A stretch of 64,000 nt of DNA from Paraglaciecola sp. L3A3. GTDB taxonomy: Bacteria > Pseudomonadota > Gammaproteobacteria > Enterobacterales > Alteromonadaceae. Each line of letters starts with the position of its first letter. The first letter of the stretch is position 1. The position numbers and the translations under genes are program-made. The DNA is taken from positions 2,773,501 to 2,837,500 of the forward strand of contig NZ_CP047023.1 in NCBI RefSeq assembly GCF_009796765.1, given 5' to 3'. The notes below the pieces were generated by a model. It worked only from the letters and a program-made list of their open reading frames with translations. It did no database searches and was not told the origin of the DNA. Of this stretch, positions 18,245 through 26,791 are shown one piece after another.

Positions 18245-21200
18245 TTAAAGCCAATCTCTGCTTTTCCTAATTGGATAGACCCCATTTTCGCTTGTATAAT
18301 CTGAAAGAATTTTTTGTTCTTTTAGTATTTCGAGTAACTGTCTATTAATTTCAGTTACTGCCAAGTTTGGACGTTTTCCACTGCTGGTTAAATCACTTAA
18401 TTTTTCATTTGGGTGTTTAGATAAAGCATTCTTAATTTTCGACTTGGTTAGCTTGTGGCCAAGTTTAACAATAATCTGAGTGTATTCGTTTTCCGGAACT
18501 AATGATAAAAGTCTGTCAAACAAGTCACTAATATTTGTATTCTTTGATGTGTGAAGAATCAAGGTTTCAATGAATTTGGGATTAGTATTATCAGGTTCAA
18601 GTAATAAATATGTTTCAGTTAGCTTATCGCCGTCAATATTATATTCTTCGAGAGAAAAGCTAGGTAGTAGCTCGGCAATAAACACGGCCAAACTATATTC
18701 AGGATTAAGCTTCAATATCTCTGAAATATCTTTAAAGTCCAACGAAGATAATTCATTGTTATGTTTCAAATATTCCGACGTGTTGTTTACAATTAAGTGT
18801 GCCAACAGTGTTGGTTTATCTGCGATATTTTCATAAGTATTTGAATTCAGTTTTACTACTTTTAAATCCAGTAGTATCTGCATTTTTTCATCTGAAATTT
18901 TAGGCCACTGATCTAGGGAGTTGTCTATAATAACGTTGGCTATCTTACTGTAGGCAGTGTCATTAATATCATTAGAATTCAAAAGAAAATTTTGTAAATC
19001 ACTAAAAACATCAATATTCTGTTTTATTTCATTGATGTTACTTTTCAGTAGCCTTTCAATAGTATTTTTATCTGATACGTAATCAACAAATGTATTATTA
19101 TTAACCATTTCAGAATCATAATACTCTGCTAACAATTGCCACGAAGGTAGAATTTTTCGGTGCTCAAAAATAAAATCATGACCTGAATTTACGTTCTCTA
19201 AACTTTGAAATACGTGTAATTGTTGATCTATTACTTTTTCTCTATTTTTGTCTGATAACTTAATGTTATTGATAAGATGAAGAAGAGCTGCTTCGGGTTC
19301 TTCTGTATTTTCTGTATTTTGAAACATAACATTTTCAACATAAGTGTCTATATTGGAATCAATGCGTTCGCGCAATTTTGTATTGTTGGTATTCAAAACC
19401 TGCTGATATGTTTGTTTTTGAATACTTGTTGTATCCAAACCATAATGTGCCAAAGCTAATTGCATATTATTTAAGGATAGTTTGAATCTAGCTTCTTCAA
19501 TAATCGAAGCGTAGCTAATAGGAAAGTGACTTAAAGCATCAAGCGAAGGGATATTTAGTTCGAAATGAATAATCAATTCAAGTGCATTACTTGAGTCTTG
19601 ATTGTCACCTTCTTGAATAAAAATTTCAGGCTGCTCTTCTAAAATATTTAGTAGTAATTCATGAGACGGTAATTTATCCAGATAATACTTATCAATTGTA
19701 TTAATTAACCATTGTGCTTCAGTACCACTTTGGGACTGATTAAATACGACTTCTAGGTATTCAGGCCATTCCTTGAGAAGCTGTTTCGATAATGTATGCA
19801 AATTATTTCCAACCGATAAATAACTACTCAAAAACTTAGCTCCCTCTTCCGAGTAATGTTCTTTTATGGTTTGTAAAAAATTCGAGGTTTTAGCATTCTT
19901 TGGACAGTGTTCGAGAATGCACTCAAGTATACTAACATTGAAAATATAAATTGATTTAAAATCAGAACCCGTCAATCTTTTTACCAGTTCAGCTGGATTG
20001 TCTAATGTAAAGCTATATTCAGATTTCTGACGAGATTGAATTTTTAGAAATAATTGTTGATCTTTTATTGTCCAGTGTTCTTTGTTGTTGAATACGGTCG
20101 AATACAATTGGTAATTTTCATTTAGTAACCCTTTGCGGACAAGATACTTAACCAAAGCAACGTGCTGCCATGGTGAATCTTTAGAATTACCATCCTCAGA
20201 AAACTTTTCATCAATAATTTTAATTATCGTTTCATCATACTCTGACAGTTCTCTTAGTTTGCTAAGTTCAATATCCTTAAGTTTTTTTCTGAGCTTTTGC
20301 GATTGTTCTCTGAGCTGTTTTAGCTTGCCCTCCGTTTTGTTCTTTGCGGCTATTAGACGCGCATCAATAGTGGTTCCTGGGTTCAGTTCTTTTTCTAAGG
20401 CTTTAACTGATGTAACTAAATGAACACGATGATTATTAAAATTGACACCTGCTATTTGACTATCTTCTTTTGGAATTAATTCTTTAAGCTTGGCGATAGT
20501 TTTAATATCACTGAGGTCCTGACGAGACTGATTTTTAAAAATACTGCAAATTCCTTGTCGATAAAGTTGAGCTATATAAATATTTAACAACTCATTTTCT
20601 GAAAAAGAGTTTTCATAATCAGCATTAGCAATTTTTACTTCTAAGTCATCTATCTCAGATACAATCCCTTGCTTAATTATTAACTTATATTCTTCAGTAT
20701 GAGTCAAAACGTCATATAACATTCCTTTGCCGTAATGTAGCTCATCAAAATCTTTTACGAATATATTTTTGTATAGGACCAGCGAAAATAGCTGTGCAGA
20801 GTCAAGATTTGGACTGTTTATGGCTGTTTTATAGATCACGTATTCATTGAAGGTATTATTGATAGTGCGTGGGTCTGTGATGAATTGTGAAATATCACGA
20901 AGCAGATTCTTATCAACAGTGAGTTCTGTGCTGAGTTTTTGATTTCGGGCAATAAATTCATCTTCTGAATTTGCAGTACCAGTTACAGGTACTACCGGCA
21001 AAATAAAGTCAAAAAACTTAGTACGGTCGTTTACTGCAAACATTGAATCTTTTAGAGCATAGATAAACTGTATATCTCGTTTTATCCCTCGATTTTGATT
21101 TAGTAATGTATTTAGCTCGCGCAGCTTAGTAAAAATCTCAGGCTCTTTGAATCTGTCTAGGTCTTCGAAAATAACTAGTTCATAAGGGTGTCTATCGAAG

Positions 21201-21898
21201 AAATATAAAATTTCATCAAAGTATTTGTTGAGGATCGACGTATCATCATCTTTTGATTTTTCAAACTCTAAGTTTTTAAGTGATATTTTGCTAAAGGTTT
21301 TTGAAGATAAAAAATGGAAAAACCACTCTAATCCCAAAATTGTCAGAACGCTGTTAATCCATACCATTAGAAATACAAGGAAATATTCATATGACCATGG
21401 TTTGTAGATGGTTAAGATGGAACTATGAGCAAACAAAAAATAAGAAATTATTGACCAAATTGTAATTAACAAAGGCGCTAATAAAGACCTTTTTATGTTT
21501 TTTATTCGATTAAATCTAGAACGGGGAAGTTCAGCACCAGTTTCTGTGTATAAAATCTGCTGTAGAATTTGTAACTGTAAATCTTCCACATCCCCCTGGG
21601 GCGATTGTCTTTCTTGAAAGGTCGCAATAGCAATTGTGAGAACTTTGTGAGATTTGTTTTTTGTCTTATTATTGAACCAGTTAGTAAACAAATTATTAGT
21701 TTTTTTATTATCTTCAGGTGTATCAAGATAATGTTTGAGGTATTTATTAATTACAGAACTTTTTCCAGCAGCATAAGGGCCAGCAATAGCTATATTTTTT
21801 ATATCTGGATTTCCAATGCATTGAGATAATACATCCATATAAATACCTGTTTCATCTGGGTGTTCTATTGGGCCCAAATGTTTAAAACGGTCGTCCAT
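18245..21898 (-). CDS. YobI-like P-loop NTPase with inserted membrane helices
   Basis: This 1217-residue protein has a Walker A motif at residues 40-48 (GPYAAGKSS) and two membrane helices at about 138-156 and 172-196. A Walker B/acidic region follows (ELVIFEDLDRF, 240-250), then REL and ALKDSMF motifs like those of KAP/YobI NTPases. The last 850 residues are a long, mostly helical region with coiled coil (about 525-560) and no known enzyme motif. Insertion of membrane helices between Walker A and B is the hallmark of this group. The cellular role is not established; related NTPases are suspected of defence functions. It is a single gene, visibly richer in A+T than its neighbours, sitting next to toxin-antitoxin genes and repeats, which suggests acquisition. 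Complete, with no frameshift. Confidence 0.82.
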   Translation of the reverse strand: MDDRFKHLGPIEHPDETGIYMDVLSQCIGNPDIKNIAIAGPYAAGKSSVINKYLKHYLDTPEDNKKTNNLFTNWFNNKTKNKSHKVLTIAIATFQERQSPQGDVEDLQLQILQQILYTETGAELPRSRFNRIKNIKRSLLAPLLITIWSIISYFLFAHSSILTIYKPWSYEYFLVFLMVWINSVLTILGLEWFFHFLSSKTFSKISLKNLEFEKSKDDDTSILNKYFDEILYFFDRHPYELVIFEDLDRFKEPEIFTKLRELNTLLNQNRGIKRDIQFIYALKDSMFAVNDRTKFFDFILPVVPVTGTANSEDEFIARNQKLSTELTVDKNLLRDISQFITDPRTINNTFNEYVIYKTAINSPNLDSAQLFSLVLYKNIFVKDFDELHYGKGMLYDVLTHTEEYKLIIKQGIVSEIDDLEVKIANADYENSFSENELLNIYIAQLYRQGICSIFKNQSRQDLSDIKTIAKLKELIPKEDSQIAGVNFNNHRVHLVTSVKALEKELNPGTTIDARLIAAKNKTEGKLKQLREQSQKLRKKLKDIELSKLRELSEYDETIIKIIDEKFSEDGNSKDSPWQHVALVKYLVRKGLLNENYQLYSTVFNNKEHWTIKDQQLFLKIQSRQKSEYSFTLDNPAELVKRLTGSDFKSIYIFNVSILECILEHCPKNAKTSNFLQTIKEHYSEEGAKFLSSYLSVGNNLHTLSKQLLKEWPEYLEVVFNQSQSGTEAQWLINTIDKYYLDKLPSHELLLNILEEQPEIFIQEGDNQDSSNALELIIHFELNIPSLDALSHFPISYASIIEEARFKLSLNNMQLALAHYGLDTTSIQKQTYQQVLNTNNTKLRERIDSNIDTYVENVMFQNTENTEEPEAALLHLINNIKLSDKNREKVIDQQLHVFQSLENVNSGHDFIFEHRKILPSWQLLAEYYDSEMVNNNTFVDYVSDKNTIERLLKSNINEIKQNIDVFSDLQNFLLNSNDINDTAYSKIANVIIDNSLDQWPKISDEKMQILLDLKVVKLNSNTYENIADKPTLLAHLIVNNTSEYLKHNNELSSLDFKDISEILKLNPEYSLAVFIAELLPSFSLEEYNIDGDKLTETYLLLEPDNTNPKFIETLILHTSKNTNISDLFDRLLSLVPENEYTQIIVKLGHKLTKSKIKNALSKHPNEKLSDLTSSGKRPNLAVTEINRQLLEILKEQKILSDYTSENGVYPIRKSRDWL

Positions 21899-23169: not shown

Positions 23170-23709
23170 CTAGCTTTTTGCAATAACACCACAAGCTACG
23201 CGTTCGCCACCACCACCTAAGGGTTTTGGTGAATCAGAATAATTGTCACCGTTAGCATGGATCATAATGGCCCGCCCCTCGATGTCTTCCAGTTCAAGTT
23301 CTGGTGCAAATACGGGTAAGTCGGCATTACCATCAATATCAACATACAAGGTAGGTAAATCACCTTCATGGCCTTTTTCAGACCATGGAACACTATGTTT
23401 ATCTGTTTTTTCGGGATCATAGTGCCCCCCAGCAGCGCCACCTAAAACTTTTTTACCATCTTTCATGGCCGCTGAACAATCACCATTTTGATGAATATGA
23501 AACCCATGTATACCCGGTGTTAATCCTGCCAATTTAGGACTAAACACAACCCCATCATCGTCGTAATTGCTGAGTGTTATTTGTCCAATACTTTCACCCG
23601 TTTTTAAATCATTTATTGTCACTGTTTTTTCTTTATCTCCTGCAAAAGTCACAGTGCTGAGAGCCAAAGAAACCGAAGCAACTAAAACGGCTATAGAATG
23701 TTTTTTCAT
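23170..23709 (-). CDS. sodC: periplasmic Cu,Zn superoxide dismutase
   Basis: This 179-residue enzyme converts superoxide to oxygen and peroxide in the periplasm. The signal peptide MKKHSIAVLVASVSLALSTV is followed by a single SOD domain. The copper/zinc ligands are visible in GIHGFHIHQNGDC, GGHYDPEKTDKH and IMIHANGDNYSD, and the late structural region GGGGERVACGVI is complete. The two Cys of the structural disulfide (in GDCSA and VACGV) are present. The ribosome site aggagaac precedes the ATG. It stands alone. Confidence 0.95.
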   Translation of the reverse strand: MKKHSIAVLVASVSLALSTVTFAGDKEKTVTINDLKTGESIGQITLSNYDDDGVVFSPKLAGLTPGIHGFHIHQNGDCSAAMKDGKKVLGGAAGGHYDPEKTDKHSVPWSEKGHEGDLPTLYVDIDGNADLPVFAPELELEDIEGRAIMIHANGDNYSDSPKPLGGGGERVACGVIAKS

Positions 23710-24035
23710 GATGTTCTCCTTAGAAATAAAATTGAATAAATCACCAAACTAAAACTGTGATAAACCTTTCCCCATCACAAAAGCATAAACCACACCAAGT
23801 AACATAACATTCCACAACGCCTTGATTTTATTGGCTTACATGAAGTTAGTGGTAATAATAAGTATTAAAAATATAAATATCAGATTACTTAATAGCGCAG
23901 CACAGTGAAAAATTTACAGTACGATTTGAATAATTAACAATAATGGTTACGGCTGATTAAATTTATATGCTCTGCGAAACAGACGAGCAACATAGATGTT
24001 GTGAACCTGAACCAAACGCTTTTGATTTACAGCTT
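23710..24035. other. intergenic region between sodC and the REP array
   Basis: A+T-rich with no gene. At about 23969-24015 a stretch (tctgcgaaacagac ... gatgttgtgaacctgaacc) is related to one on the far side of the REP array at about 26155-26200. Confidence 0.4.
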
Positions 24036-24871
24036 TGTAGGTTGGGCTTTAGCCCATCAACCTATTATTCAAATTTGATATTATTGACGGCATTAATGCC
24101 GACCTACCTAACATGACGCCCTAAAGGGCGACCTACAAAAATAATTGCTCAACATGGAGGTTTGACAATCTAAAAGGTTCTTCGATTCTGTAGGTTGGGC
24201 TTTAGCCCATCAACCTATTATTCAAATTTCAAATTATTGACGGCATTAATGCCGACCTATCAAACATGACGCCCTAAAGGGCGACCTACATAAATAATAG
24301 CCCAATATGATGTTTGACTATTTAAAGGGTGTTCTACGATCCTGTAGGTTGGGCTTTAGCCCATCTGCCTATTATCCAAATTTGATATTATTGACGGTAT
24401 ATATGCCGACCTACCTAACATGACGCCCTAAAGGGCGACCTACATAAATATTAGCCCCATAATGAAGCATGAATATCTAAAGGGCGTTCTACGATTTTGT
24501 AGGTTGGGCTTTAGCCCATCATCATATATCTAAATTTGATATTATTGACGGCATAAATGCCAACCAACCTTACATGACGCCCTAAAGGGCGACCTACATA
24601 AACAATAACCCAACATGAGGTTTGACAATCTAAATGGTGCTTCGATTCTGTAGGTTGGGCTTTAGCCCATCAGCCTATGATTCAAATTTTATACTGTTGA
24701 CGCCCTAAAGGGCGACCTACAAAAATAATAACCGAATATGAGGCATGAATATCTAAAGGGTTCTACGGTATTGTAGGTTGGGCTTTAGCCCATCAACCTC
24801 ATATGCAAATTTTGTATATTGGCGGTATAAATGCCGACCTATCAAACATGACGCCCTAAAGGGCGACCTAC
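24036..24871. repeat. REP/BIME array, left block
   Basis: Six units, spaced about 151-155 bp apart (the last step is 123 bp). Each opens with GTAGGT plus the hairpin GGGCTTTAGCCC. Most then carry, in the opposite orientation, a GGCATTAATGCC hairpin and a CGCCCTAAAGGGCG hairpin, each followed by ACCTAC (the complement of GTAGGT). Unit starts: 24036, 24189, 24343, 24498, 24649, 24772. The conserved GTAG head and inverted pairing are typical of REP elements mobilised by RAYT transposases. Confidence 0.92.
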
Positions 24872-25320
24872 AAATATACTGAATTCCAAAATGGGTAATC
24901 GTTAAGGTGTTTCACTAAACCTTTTCTTAATGGATTAGCGACAATATATCGCGCTATAGTTTTTCTATCATCTTCATCCCGTAGCGCACGATCATAAAAC
25001 GAAGACTGCCAAACTTTACCATTCCTACTTATTTTCTTATTAACTCTAAAACCGCTGACTCCTTTTAAAGCCCCCACTACTTTTGACAAGTTAGAGCCTT
25101 TATTACCTAAGCGTAATAAACCGTGAAAATGGTCTGGCATTAATACCCAGGTTAACCAAGTACAATGATGTTGAGTTTCATTAACGTTAATCTGTCGACA
25201 AAACAAACACGCTAAATTGAATTCACTAAAATAGCACTGTCGGTTTTGTGTGTTAAAGGTTATGAAGTATTCGCCGTGAGCCTGCGAATAACGGCCTTTT
25301 CTTAAATCATCCCATGACAT
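24868..25320 (-). CDS. REP-associated tyrosine transposase (RAYT, Y1/HUH-like)
   Basis: This 150-residue protein is a single-domain Y1 transposase. The HUH-type metal pair lies in MPDHFHGLLRL (His64, His66), and the catalytic Tyr is expected at about 125 in ARYIVANPLRKGLV. The family cuts single-stranded DNA beside GTAG-headed REP hairpins. A strong ribosome site AAGGAG lies 6 nt before the ATG. The gene is enclosed by REPs: one begins at 25334, next to the ribosome site, and at the other end the TAG stop (24870-24868) is itself the TAG of a REP GTAGGT head. All key motifs are present, so it is probably active. Confidence 0.93.
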   Translation of the reverse strand: MSWDDLRKGRYSQAHGEYFITFNTQNRQCYFSEFNLACLFCRQINVNETQHHCTWLTWVLMPDHFHGLLRLGNKGSNLSKVVGALKGVSGFRVNKKISRNGKVWQSSFYDRALRDEDDRKTIARYIVANPLRKGLVKHLNDYPFWNSVYL

Positions 25321-25333
25321 CGTTCTCTCCTTT

Positions 25334-25964
25334 GTAGGTTGGGCTTTAGCCCATCTCGCTATAATTCAAATTTTGTATGTTGACGGCATAAATGTCGACC
25401 TATCAAACATGACGCCCTAAAGGGCGACCTACATAAATAATAGCCCAACATGAGGTTTGACTATTTCAAGGGTGTTCTACGGTTTTGTAGGTTGGGCTTT
25501 AGCCCATCAACCTGTGATTCATATTTTGTATGTTGACGGTATAAATGCCGATCTATCAAACATGACGCCCTAAAGGGCGACCTACAAAAATAATTGCGCA
25601 ACATGGAGGTTTGACAATCTAAAAGGTTCTTCGATTCTGTAGGTTGGGCTTTAGCCCATCTGCCTATTATTCAAATTTGATATTATTGACGGCATAAATG
25701 TCGACCTACCACACATGACGCCCTAAAGGGCGACCTACATAAATAATAACCGAATATGAGGCATGAATATCTAAAAGGTTCTACGGTATTGTAGGTTGGG
25801 CTTTAGCCCATCAACCTATTATTCAAATTTCAAATTATTGACGGCATTAATGCCGACCTATCAAACATGACGCCCTAAAGGGCGACCTACATAAATATTA
25901 GCCGAATATGAGGTATGACAATCTAAATGGTGCTTCGATTCTGTAGGTTGGGCTTTAGCCCATC
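25334..25964. repeat. REP/BIME array, right block
   Basis: Five units of the same structure as the left block, starting at 25333, 25486, 25638, 25790 and 25942, with a very regular period of 152-153 bp. The last unit has only the first hairpin. The units are close to each other in sequence, including linkers such as atgaggtttgac, so the array probably grew by whole-unit duplication. Confidence 0.92.
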
Positions 25965-25988
25965 AACTTTAGCTATGAAAATATAAAG

Positions 25989-26104
25989 GTTGTGAACACC
26001 TGAACCGCACGCGTAGCGTCGGTTTAAGTACAGCTATTTACCTGAACTTAAGAGATATTTTAATGTTTGGATTGATCTAAATACTTGAAGGTATAAATGG
26101 TGCC
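25989..26104. repeat. 116-bp direct repeat, copy 1, ending in a tRNA-Leu 3' tip
   Basis: It is repeated at 26181-26296 (offset 192 bp) with only minor changes. Its last 7 bases, tggtgcc, equal the complement of the tRNA-Leu 3' end including CCA, although no tRNA follows here. The tip therefore looks like a scar of a tRNA-end duplication. Confidence 0.85.
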
Positions 26105-26180
26105 AAGGCGTCGGAAAATATTTTAGGGAACAATATTTGACAGCTTCAGCTGGTCTGCGTAGCAGATGAACAACATGGAT

Positions 26181-26296
26181 GTTGTGAACACCTGAACCGC
26201 ACGCGTAGCGTCGGTTTAAGTACGGCTATTTACCTGAACTTAAGAGATATTTTAATGTTTGGATTGATCTAAATACTTGAAGGTATAAATGGTGCC
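26181..26296. repeat. 116-bp direct repeat, copy 2, running into tRNA-Leu
   Basis: This is the second copy of 25989-26104. Its end overlaps the first 7 bases (on the + strand) of the intact tRNA-Leu gene. Confidence 0.85.
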
Positions 26297-26376
26297 CGGG
26301 GCCGGACTTGAACCGGCACGTCCTTACGAACGAGGGATTTTAAATCCCTTGTGTCTACCAATTTCACCACCCGGGC
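26290..26376 (-). tRNA. tRNA-Leu(TAA), copy 2
   Basis: This 87-nt gene folds as a class II tRNA with a long variable arm. The acceptor stem pairs gcccggg with cccgggc, the CCA is encoded, and the anticodon loop has TAA (UAA). It is identical to the copy at 26463-26549 and is the last gene of the tRNA cluster. Confidence 0.97.
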
Positions 26377-26462
26377 ATCGGGGGGATACTTACAAAAATT
26401 GTAAGTTGGTAATATTAAAGCATTTTAAATTTTTGAATACACATATACATGAATGTATAAAA

Positions 26463-26549
26463 TGGTGCCCGGGGCCGGACTTGAACCGGCACGTCCTTAC
26501 GAACGAGGGATTTTAAATCCCTTGTGTCTACCAATTTCACCACCCGGGC
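26463..26549 (-). tRNA. tRNA-Leu(TAA), copy 1
   Basis: An 87-nt class II tRNA with anticodon UAA and encoded CCA, identical to the copy downstream. It corresponds to leuZ of the E. coli glyW-cysT-leuZ cluster, here duplicated. Confidence 0.97.
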
Positions 26550-26598
26550 ATCGAGGGGTACTTGCTAAATTAACAAGCTGGTATTACTAAAGCAATAA

Positions 26599-26672
26599 TG
26601 GAGGCGGAACCCGGAGTCGAACCGAGGTCCACGGATTTGCAATCCGCTGCATAGCCATTCTGCCATTCCGCC
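26599..26672 (-). tRNA. tRNA-Cys(GCA)
   Basis: A 74-nt cloverleaf with acceptor stem ggcggaa/ttccgcc, anticodon GCA, and CCA encoded. It lies in the order Gly-Cys-Leu-Leu, as in the E. coli cluster downstream of pgsA. Confidence 0.97.
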
Positions 26673-26716
26673 ATAGCTTTTATCATAAAACAAAAATACT
26701 TTATTTTATAAAAATT

Positions 26717-26791
26717 TGGAGCGGGAAACGAGATTCGAACTCGCGACCCCAACCTTGGCAAGGTTGTGCTCTACCACTGAGCTATTCCCGC
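26717..26791 (-). tRNA. tRNA-Gly(GCC)
   Basis: A 75-nt cloverleaf with acceptor stem gcgggaa/ttcccgc, anticodon GCC, and CCA encoded. It is the first gene of the cluster transcript. Confidence 0.97.

Follow-up and report, generated by a model that had tools for sequence, protein, structure and literature searches.

The window analysed here, a stretch of 64,000 nucleotides from the genome of Paraglaciecola sp. L3A3 (5.31 Mb, single contig), holds, between a sodC-like gene and a tRNA Leu-Leu-Cys-Gly cluster, an array of GTAG-headed REPs with a gene for a REP-associated tyrosine transposase (RAYT, TnpA-REP) inside it (Table 1). The 22-mer GTAGGTTGGGCTTTAGCCC, here called the plus REP, occurs 11 times, all copies exact and on the plus strand; allowing up to 3 mismatches leaves the count at 11, and 100 dinucleotide shuffles gave a mean of 0.03 matches and none with 11. 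Measured from start to start, the plus REPs are 153, 154, 155, 151, 123, 561, 153, 152, 152 and 152 bp apart, so that a preliminary description of 11 GTAGGT-headed copies every 151-155 bp is right as to the number of copies and, as to the period, for 8 of the 10 spacings. The 123-bp spacing arises because unit 5 has no inner hairpin (about 30 bp are lost there, and the inner REP with them, leaving a plain two-REP doublet); the 561-bp spacing includes the RAYT gene, which separates unit 6 from unit 7.

The whole array comprises 10 units and a terminal plus-strand REP, each unit running from the plus REP through spacer A, an inner REP on the minus strand, 6 bp and a minus REP to spacer B, whose slot in unit 6 is occupied by the RAYT gene (minus strand). 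REPs thus alternate in orientation and are repeated in tandem, the arrangement that defines a BIME. Two further, inverted hairpins had been described for most units: all 10 units carry the second, the minus REP (CGCCCTAAAGGGCG), without any difference, and 9 of the 10 have the third, the inner REP (similar to GGCATTAATGCC), in eroded form, its GTAG head being intact in 3 of the 9 copies, its 5-bp stem perfect in 3, and both only in unit 1. To speak of three different hairpins per unit is consequently an overstatement, the third being in the course of degeneration. All 21 copies of the plus and minus REPs, on the other hand, have a perfect 5-bp stem and a TTTA loop, 2 nt after the GTAG, and single-stranded DNA folding of 71-100-nt pieces of unit 9 gave z-scores of -2.2 to -2.6. 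A CRISPR-like array was considered and ruled out, as the spacers are mutually homologous and the repeated elements, next to a RAYT, are GTAG hairpins.

Table 1. Features of the REP array and its surroundings (window coordinates unless stated otherwise).
Feature	Position	Strand	Basis
sodC-like gene	23170-23709		named by eye
Whole REP array, RAYT gene between units 6 and 7	24037..25964	.	repeat and motif search
Plus REP, unit 1	24037..24058	+	
Plus REP, unit 2	24190..24211	+	
Plus REP, unit 3	24344..24365	+	
Plus REP, unit 4	24499..24520	+	
Plus REP, unit 5 (123-bp unit without inner REP)	24650..24671	+	
Plus REP, unit 6	24773..24794	+	
Plus REP, unit 7 (adjoins RAYT start)	25334..25355	+	
Plus REP, unit 8	25487..25508	+	
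Plus REP, unit 9	25639..25660	+	
Plus REP, unit 10	25791..25812	+	
Terminal plus REP	25943..25964	+	
Minus REP (GTAGGTCGCCCTTTAGGGCGTC), unit 1	24115..24136	-	
Minus REP, unit 2	24268..24289	-	
Minus REP, unit 3	24422..24443	-	
Minus REP, unit 4	24576..24597	-	
Minus REP, unit 5	24699..24720	-	
Minus REP, unit 6, overlapping RAYT stop	24850..24871	-	
Minus REP, unit 7	25411..25432	-	
Minus REP, unit 8	25564..25585	-	
Minus REP, unit 9	25717..25738	-	
Minus REP, unit 10	25869..25890	-	
Inner REP, unit 1 (sole copy with head and stem intact)	24085..24107	-	
Inner REP, unit 9 (head intact, stem broken)	25687..25709	-	
Eroded inner REPs, units 2, 3, 4, 6, 7, 8, 10	starts ~24238, 24392, 24546, 24820, 25381, 25534, 25839		
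RAYT (TnpA-REP) gene, 150 aa, HFH 64-66, Y125	24868..25320	-	PF01797, NF047646
RAYT TAG stop codon = TAG of GTAGGT head, unit-6 minus REP	24868..24870	-	
GGAG, ribosome-site-like tetramer, 3 nt from REP head at 25334	25327..25330	-	read from sequence
tRNA Leu-Leu-Cys-Gly cluster	26290-26791		
Second array, three REP doublets, 150-bp spacing, without RAYT	L060:1953-2330 = genome 810452-810829		

Around the array, a 39-nt sequence occurs on either side (23968-24006 and 26151-26189, 85% identity), as if the array lay inside another repeat; a 125-bp element stands beside it in two copies (25980-26104 and 26172-26296, 96%) and matches nothing else in the genome; and the tRNA-Leu is duplicated in tandem (26287-26385 and 26460-26558, 99% identical). 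A gene nearby (18245-21898, minus strand) encodes a protein of 1217 aa with what resembles, by eye, an N-terminal nucleotide-binding motif. The genome's UvrC shares 91% identity with the Paraglaciecola aquimarina protein, in keeping with its genus.

The single-domain Y1/HUH-like transposase first noticed amid the array matches PF01797 and the NCBIfam equivalog for REP-associated tyrosine transposases (NF047646, 140.5 bits against a cut-off of 80), and the best of 6 matches to solved structures is TnpA-REP (4er8, E 1.2e-11). Its reading frame and catalytic residues are intact, the HFH motif and Y125 being invariant in 33 of 33 aligned sequences, the array's own included. Inverted GTAG-headed REPs lie on both sides of the gene, and a GTAG head followed by a hairpin is, as had been proposed, the form of known RAYT substrates (PMC8266576), so that the sequences support an identification as REPs and RAYT. 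Two further details of the preliminary description also hold: a ribosome-site-like tetramer abuts the REP of unit 7, and the stop codon coincides with the head of the unit-6 minus REP. The latter arrangement is seen in 9 loci, ours among them, of the 69 compared (our own and 68 of the best 80 relatives); TAG stops often supplied by GTAG REPs are already reported in PMC3733652, and REPs at or near the RAYT stop in PMC2817692 and PMC3733652.

Shewanella, Colwellia and Marinomonas, besides Paraglaciecola, have close relatives of the RAYT. A tree of 71 RAYTs groups this one with P0011, a Paraglaciecola protein (75% identical), and with P0012, within a clade of 26 rows that includes the Shewanella rows and two Colwellia rows (support 87/82). 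A search of 21 other genomes of the genus found no close RAYT, the matches being 25-37% identical, which we read as other kinds of Y1 protein; a first genome scan with the single RAYT protein as query gave no match, and no relatives turned up in viral contigs. As the genome itself holds two other matches to the RAYT, 23-27% identical only, and its second array, at 810 kb, has no RAYT, we do not see the several copies moved as a unit with their transposase that are expected of an IS200/IS605 element. Among six Y1 transposase matches of this genome, three (L009, L010, L013) contain stop codons.

Pairwise, the units are 79-94% identical (differences 6-21%), and this array was therefore not recently amplified. 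The suggestion of a recent whole-unit amplification, which the regular period might favour, is thus very improbable here; it holds for the 810-kb array alone, where near-identical units (at most 1 difference) are found without a RAYT. The differences are unevenly spread. Variable columns number 0 of 22 in the plus REP and 0 of 24 in the minus REP (0 of 46 together), against 15 of 26 in spacer A and 25 of 51 in spacer B (40 of 77 in total) and 9 of 23 in the inner REP; the 6-bp stretch between inner and minus REP, with 2 of 6, is counted neither with the REPs nor with the spacers (inner REP, gap and spacer B compared in 9 units). By Fisher's test, the two REPs differ from the spacers at p 5e-11 and from the inner REP at p 1.4e-5. 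Each unit hence keeps two REPs in opposite orientation letter-perfect amid diverged spacers.

Such column invariance may also be attributed to gene conversion, and the units are indeed mosaic: units 2 and 10 agree letter for letter over spacer A and inner REP but differ by 23% in spacer B, and units 1 and 8 differ by 22% over the former stretch and by 2% over the latter. That exchange breakpoints fall only in hairpins was considered and rejected, as the two maintained REPs have no variants and patches seem to break within spacers too; a Mantel test for spacers A and B travelling together showed no correlation, and had no power, its within-spacer controls failing as well. Mosaicism, together with the other tandem duplications nearby (the tRNA-Leu among them) and the broken RAYT in a uniform Colwellia array described below, would fit a passive satellite, homogenised by gene conversion and unequal recombination, with no present role for the RAYT. 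We regard this as rather unlikely, since conversion alone should not spare two REPs wholly yet leave the third in the same unit variable, and the RAYT, for its part, has kept its frame and catalytic residues.

Less likely again is that the hairpins are kept for expression of the host or of the RAYT, their RNA ending or stabilising transcripts and the array serving as a regulatory region. Terminator-like sites are predicted 7 times, against 2.7 (sd 1.8) in shuffles, and five of them are minus REPs (5 of 10), one directly past the RAYT stop; a REP also stands within 3 nt of the RAYT ribosome site. Their T-rich tails are weak, however, ten copies exceed what such a role would need, promoter-like sites (14 against 10.3, sd 3.2) are in no clear excess, and head, stem and loop fit the substrate rules of the enzyme (PMC8266576).

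For comparison with related loci we took the best 80 of 237 confirmed relatives and counted 68 (L065-L132), L133-L144 being excluded as too distant; the counts include at least 6 loci whose RAYT frame is broken (L073, L118, L119, L130, L131, L132). In this set, with our own locus added, tandem REPs flank the RAYT in 24 of 69 loci, ours among them, and a GTAGGT 22-mer is repeated at least 3 times in 40 of 69. At least 2 equal REP spacings are seen in 23 of the 68 relatives, and arrays of at least 5 regular units in 12, so that a period that had been called unusual is so in a weak sense; the arrangement as such is ordinary for the RAYT family. The 40 loci yielded 53 distinct 22-mers, chosen without a stem test and with non-hairpin ones retained, in which 239 of 318 stem positions pair, against 51-102 with the partner slid, and which comprise 34 different stems. 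In the 12 relatives with long arrays, counting one row per locus and only columns unused in choosing the units, 4 of 60 columns vary in the 3'-stem and 6 of 48 in the loop, compared with 248 of 928 others (p 2e-4 for the stems). The pattern of invariant REPs is common among the arrays of relatives, if not universal: of the two REP rows in L125, one varies almost as much as its spacers do. In Colwellia chukchiensis (L073:5001-5450), the RAYT has an in-frame stop, yet 27 perfect REPs surround it within 3 kb; over short times, then, an array can do without a functional RAYT. Across 20 relatives' genomes, a generic REP pattern, which misses some stem types, has 2 to 191 matches.

The same pattern has 34 matches in the whole Paraglaciecola sp. 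L3A3 genome, 23 of them in the array, 6 at 810 kb and 5 alone; the reversed control has 3. Most of the repeats are local. On a test set beforehand, whether GTAGGT hairpins occur elsewhere in the genome, the result is thus in between, and the REPs away from the RAYT that mark a REPtron or REPIN are there in a weak form (11 of 34, 6 of them in one place). The array at 810 kb is made up of two units of 150 bp each plus one more doublet, 78 bp long; aligned with unit 5, its doublet proves homologous (80% over 84 columns, E 1e-14). It is preceded by a gene of 590 aa, helicase-like by eye, whose stop TAG again lies in a GTAG head. Of this gene's 13 orthologues in the genus, 12 lack any match to the generic pattern over the stretch examined; the 13th, in the sister genome G003, has a single decayed copy of the 810-kb doublet plus flank, from which we infer that the 810-kb array arose by tandem copying of a doublet and flanking DNA already there.

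G003 holds three such doublets, one intact and two decayed (one being that just mentioned), and a genome search detected no RAYT in it, which may reflect an assembly gap, because its contig ends 73 bp past the tRNA-Leu, the array's place here. Three draft relatives (L178, L188, L193) likewise have contigs that stop 73-162 bp past this tRNA-Leu, which looks like an assembly broken by a repeat. In a second sister genome, G009, a decayed minus-type REP and then an inner-type REP stand head to head within 200 bp after the tRNA-Leu, in the order and orientation seen here and 47 rather than 29 bp apart, the inner-type REP agreeing with that of unit 9 at all 23 nt; no RAYT was found in the 961 bp read or in a genome search. 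This relic suggests that a REPtron was already present at the tRNA-Leu site in the common ancestor. At the sodC-like loci of nine relatives no tRNA was found (about 1.5 kb of flank, some shorter), and the DNA downstream of the tRNA-Leu in our genome has weak matches only, at 2 of 30 relatives' loci, with no clean empty site among them.

Taken together, the locus is very probably a REPtron of the same type as Mb from Marinomonas sp. MWYL1: a single-strand transposase of the HUH/Y1 kind, now domesticated, surrounded by cognate REPs in a BIME-like tandem array. As described in PMC8266576, Mb belongs to the group 3 TnpA-REPs, and its REPs, concentrated near the gene, are perfect palindromes of 5 bp that enclose a TTTA loop and stand 2 nt from the GTAG; TnpA-Mb cuts at CT and CA, and its Y125F variant is inactive. 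REP form, Tyr125 and the closeness of REPs to the gene are all alike here, whereas our locus has a tandem unit of two maintained REPs and a decaying one, and one further array elsewhere. By REP form it would belong to group 3, Mb type, which corresponds to subclass 2.5 (PMC6006769), the protein tree holding relatives only. Inverted REP doublets in tandem around the gene, with REPs very close to the RAYT stop, are also described for the E. coli rayT BIME-2 and RAYT BIMEs, where the rayt 3' end is reported to be drawn into BIMEs (PMC2817692); E. coli REP stems are bulged (PMC8266576), unlike the perfect maintained stems here. In open-licence PubMed Central, we found no paper with both 'Paraglaciecola' and 'extragenic palindromic'.

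By analogy with its family, the RAYT would recognise the REP as single-stranded DNA, with the GTAG as guide, and cleave at a nearby CT or CA through Tyr125. The array would have grown by tandem duplication of a doublet and neighbouring DNA, through recombination, slippage or strand transfer by the RAYT, routes that are indistinguishable here, and doublets would occasionally reach other sites, such as that at 810 kb. The presence of the RAYT may help to keep its substrate hairpins intact; high REP abundance, according to PMC3686654, appears dependent on a cognate RAYT.

A possible origin of the third hairpin is offered by the REPtrons of Shewanella nanhaiensis, S. hanedai, S. sp. MBTL60-007, S. 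abyssi and S. sairae (L065, L066, L067, L078 and L080), whose RAYTs are 64-71% identical to ours and whose REP GGGCTTTAGCCC is the same. In all five it is paired with GGCATTTATGCC, the ends mostly 68-73 bp apart; in our own units plus and inner REP span 71 bp, and the inner copies resemble eroded forms of this Shewanella REP. Unlike at the Shewanella loci, where GGCATTTATGCC is the partner, the GGCATTTATGCC-type REP decays here and GCCCTTTAGGGC, the minus REP, is kept; unit 5, the 810-kb array and G003 doublets have it as partner too. With Shewanella taken as outgroup, the third hairpin is probably a REP that was once in use and is now decaying, its kind surviving beside the RAYTs of Shewanella. 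In the G009 relic, a single case, the state is reversed, with the minus REP broken and the inner REP intact.

A change of substrate of this kind has been proposed under the name 'orthoswitch' in PMC3686654, the one paper with that word in open-licence PubMed Central, and has so far been drawn from strain comparison, its authors considering the mechanism only a matter for speculation. We put forward, tentatively, that the array could preserve such a switch within one repeat unit, the old partner REP decaying 29 bp from a perfectly kept new one, a reading that we hold to be quite possible, if short of probable. What sets the locus apart is this side-by-side of maintained and decaying REPs inside one unit, together with the relics in sister genomes: a single enzyme lies amid 11 and 10 intact REPs and 9 graded, naturally mutated candidate substrates, so that the limits of recognition are addressable from one locus, and sister genomes in which no RAYT was detected offer a comparison. 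The locus bears on how RAYTs change the REP that they recognise and on whether RAYT activity preserves REPs, and, if the orthoswitch reading is true, column variation in RAYT arrays would show which hairpins the enzyme recognises now.
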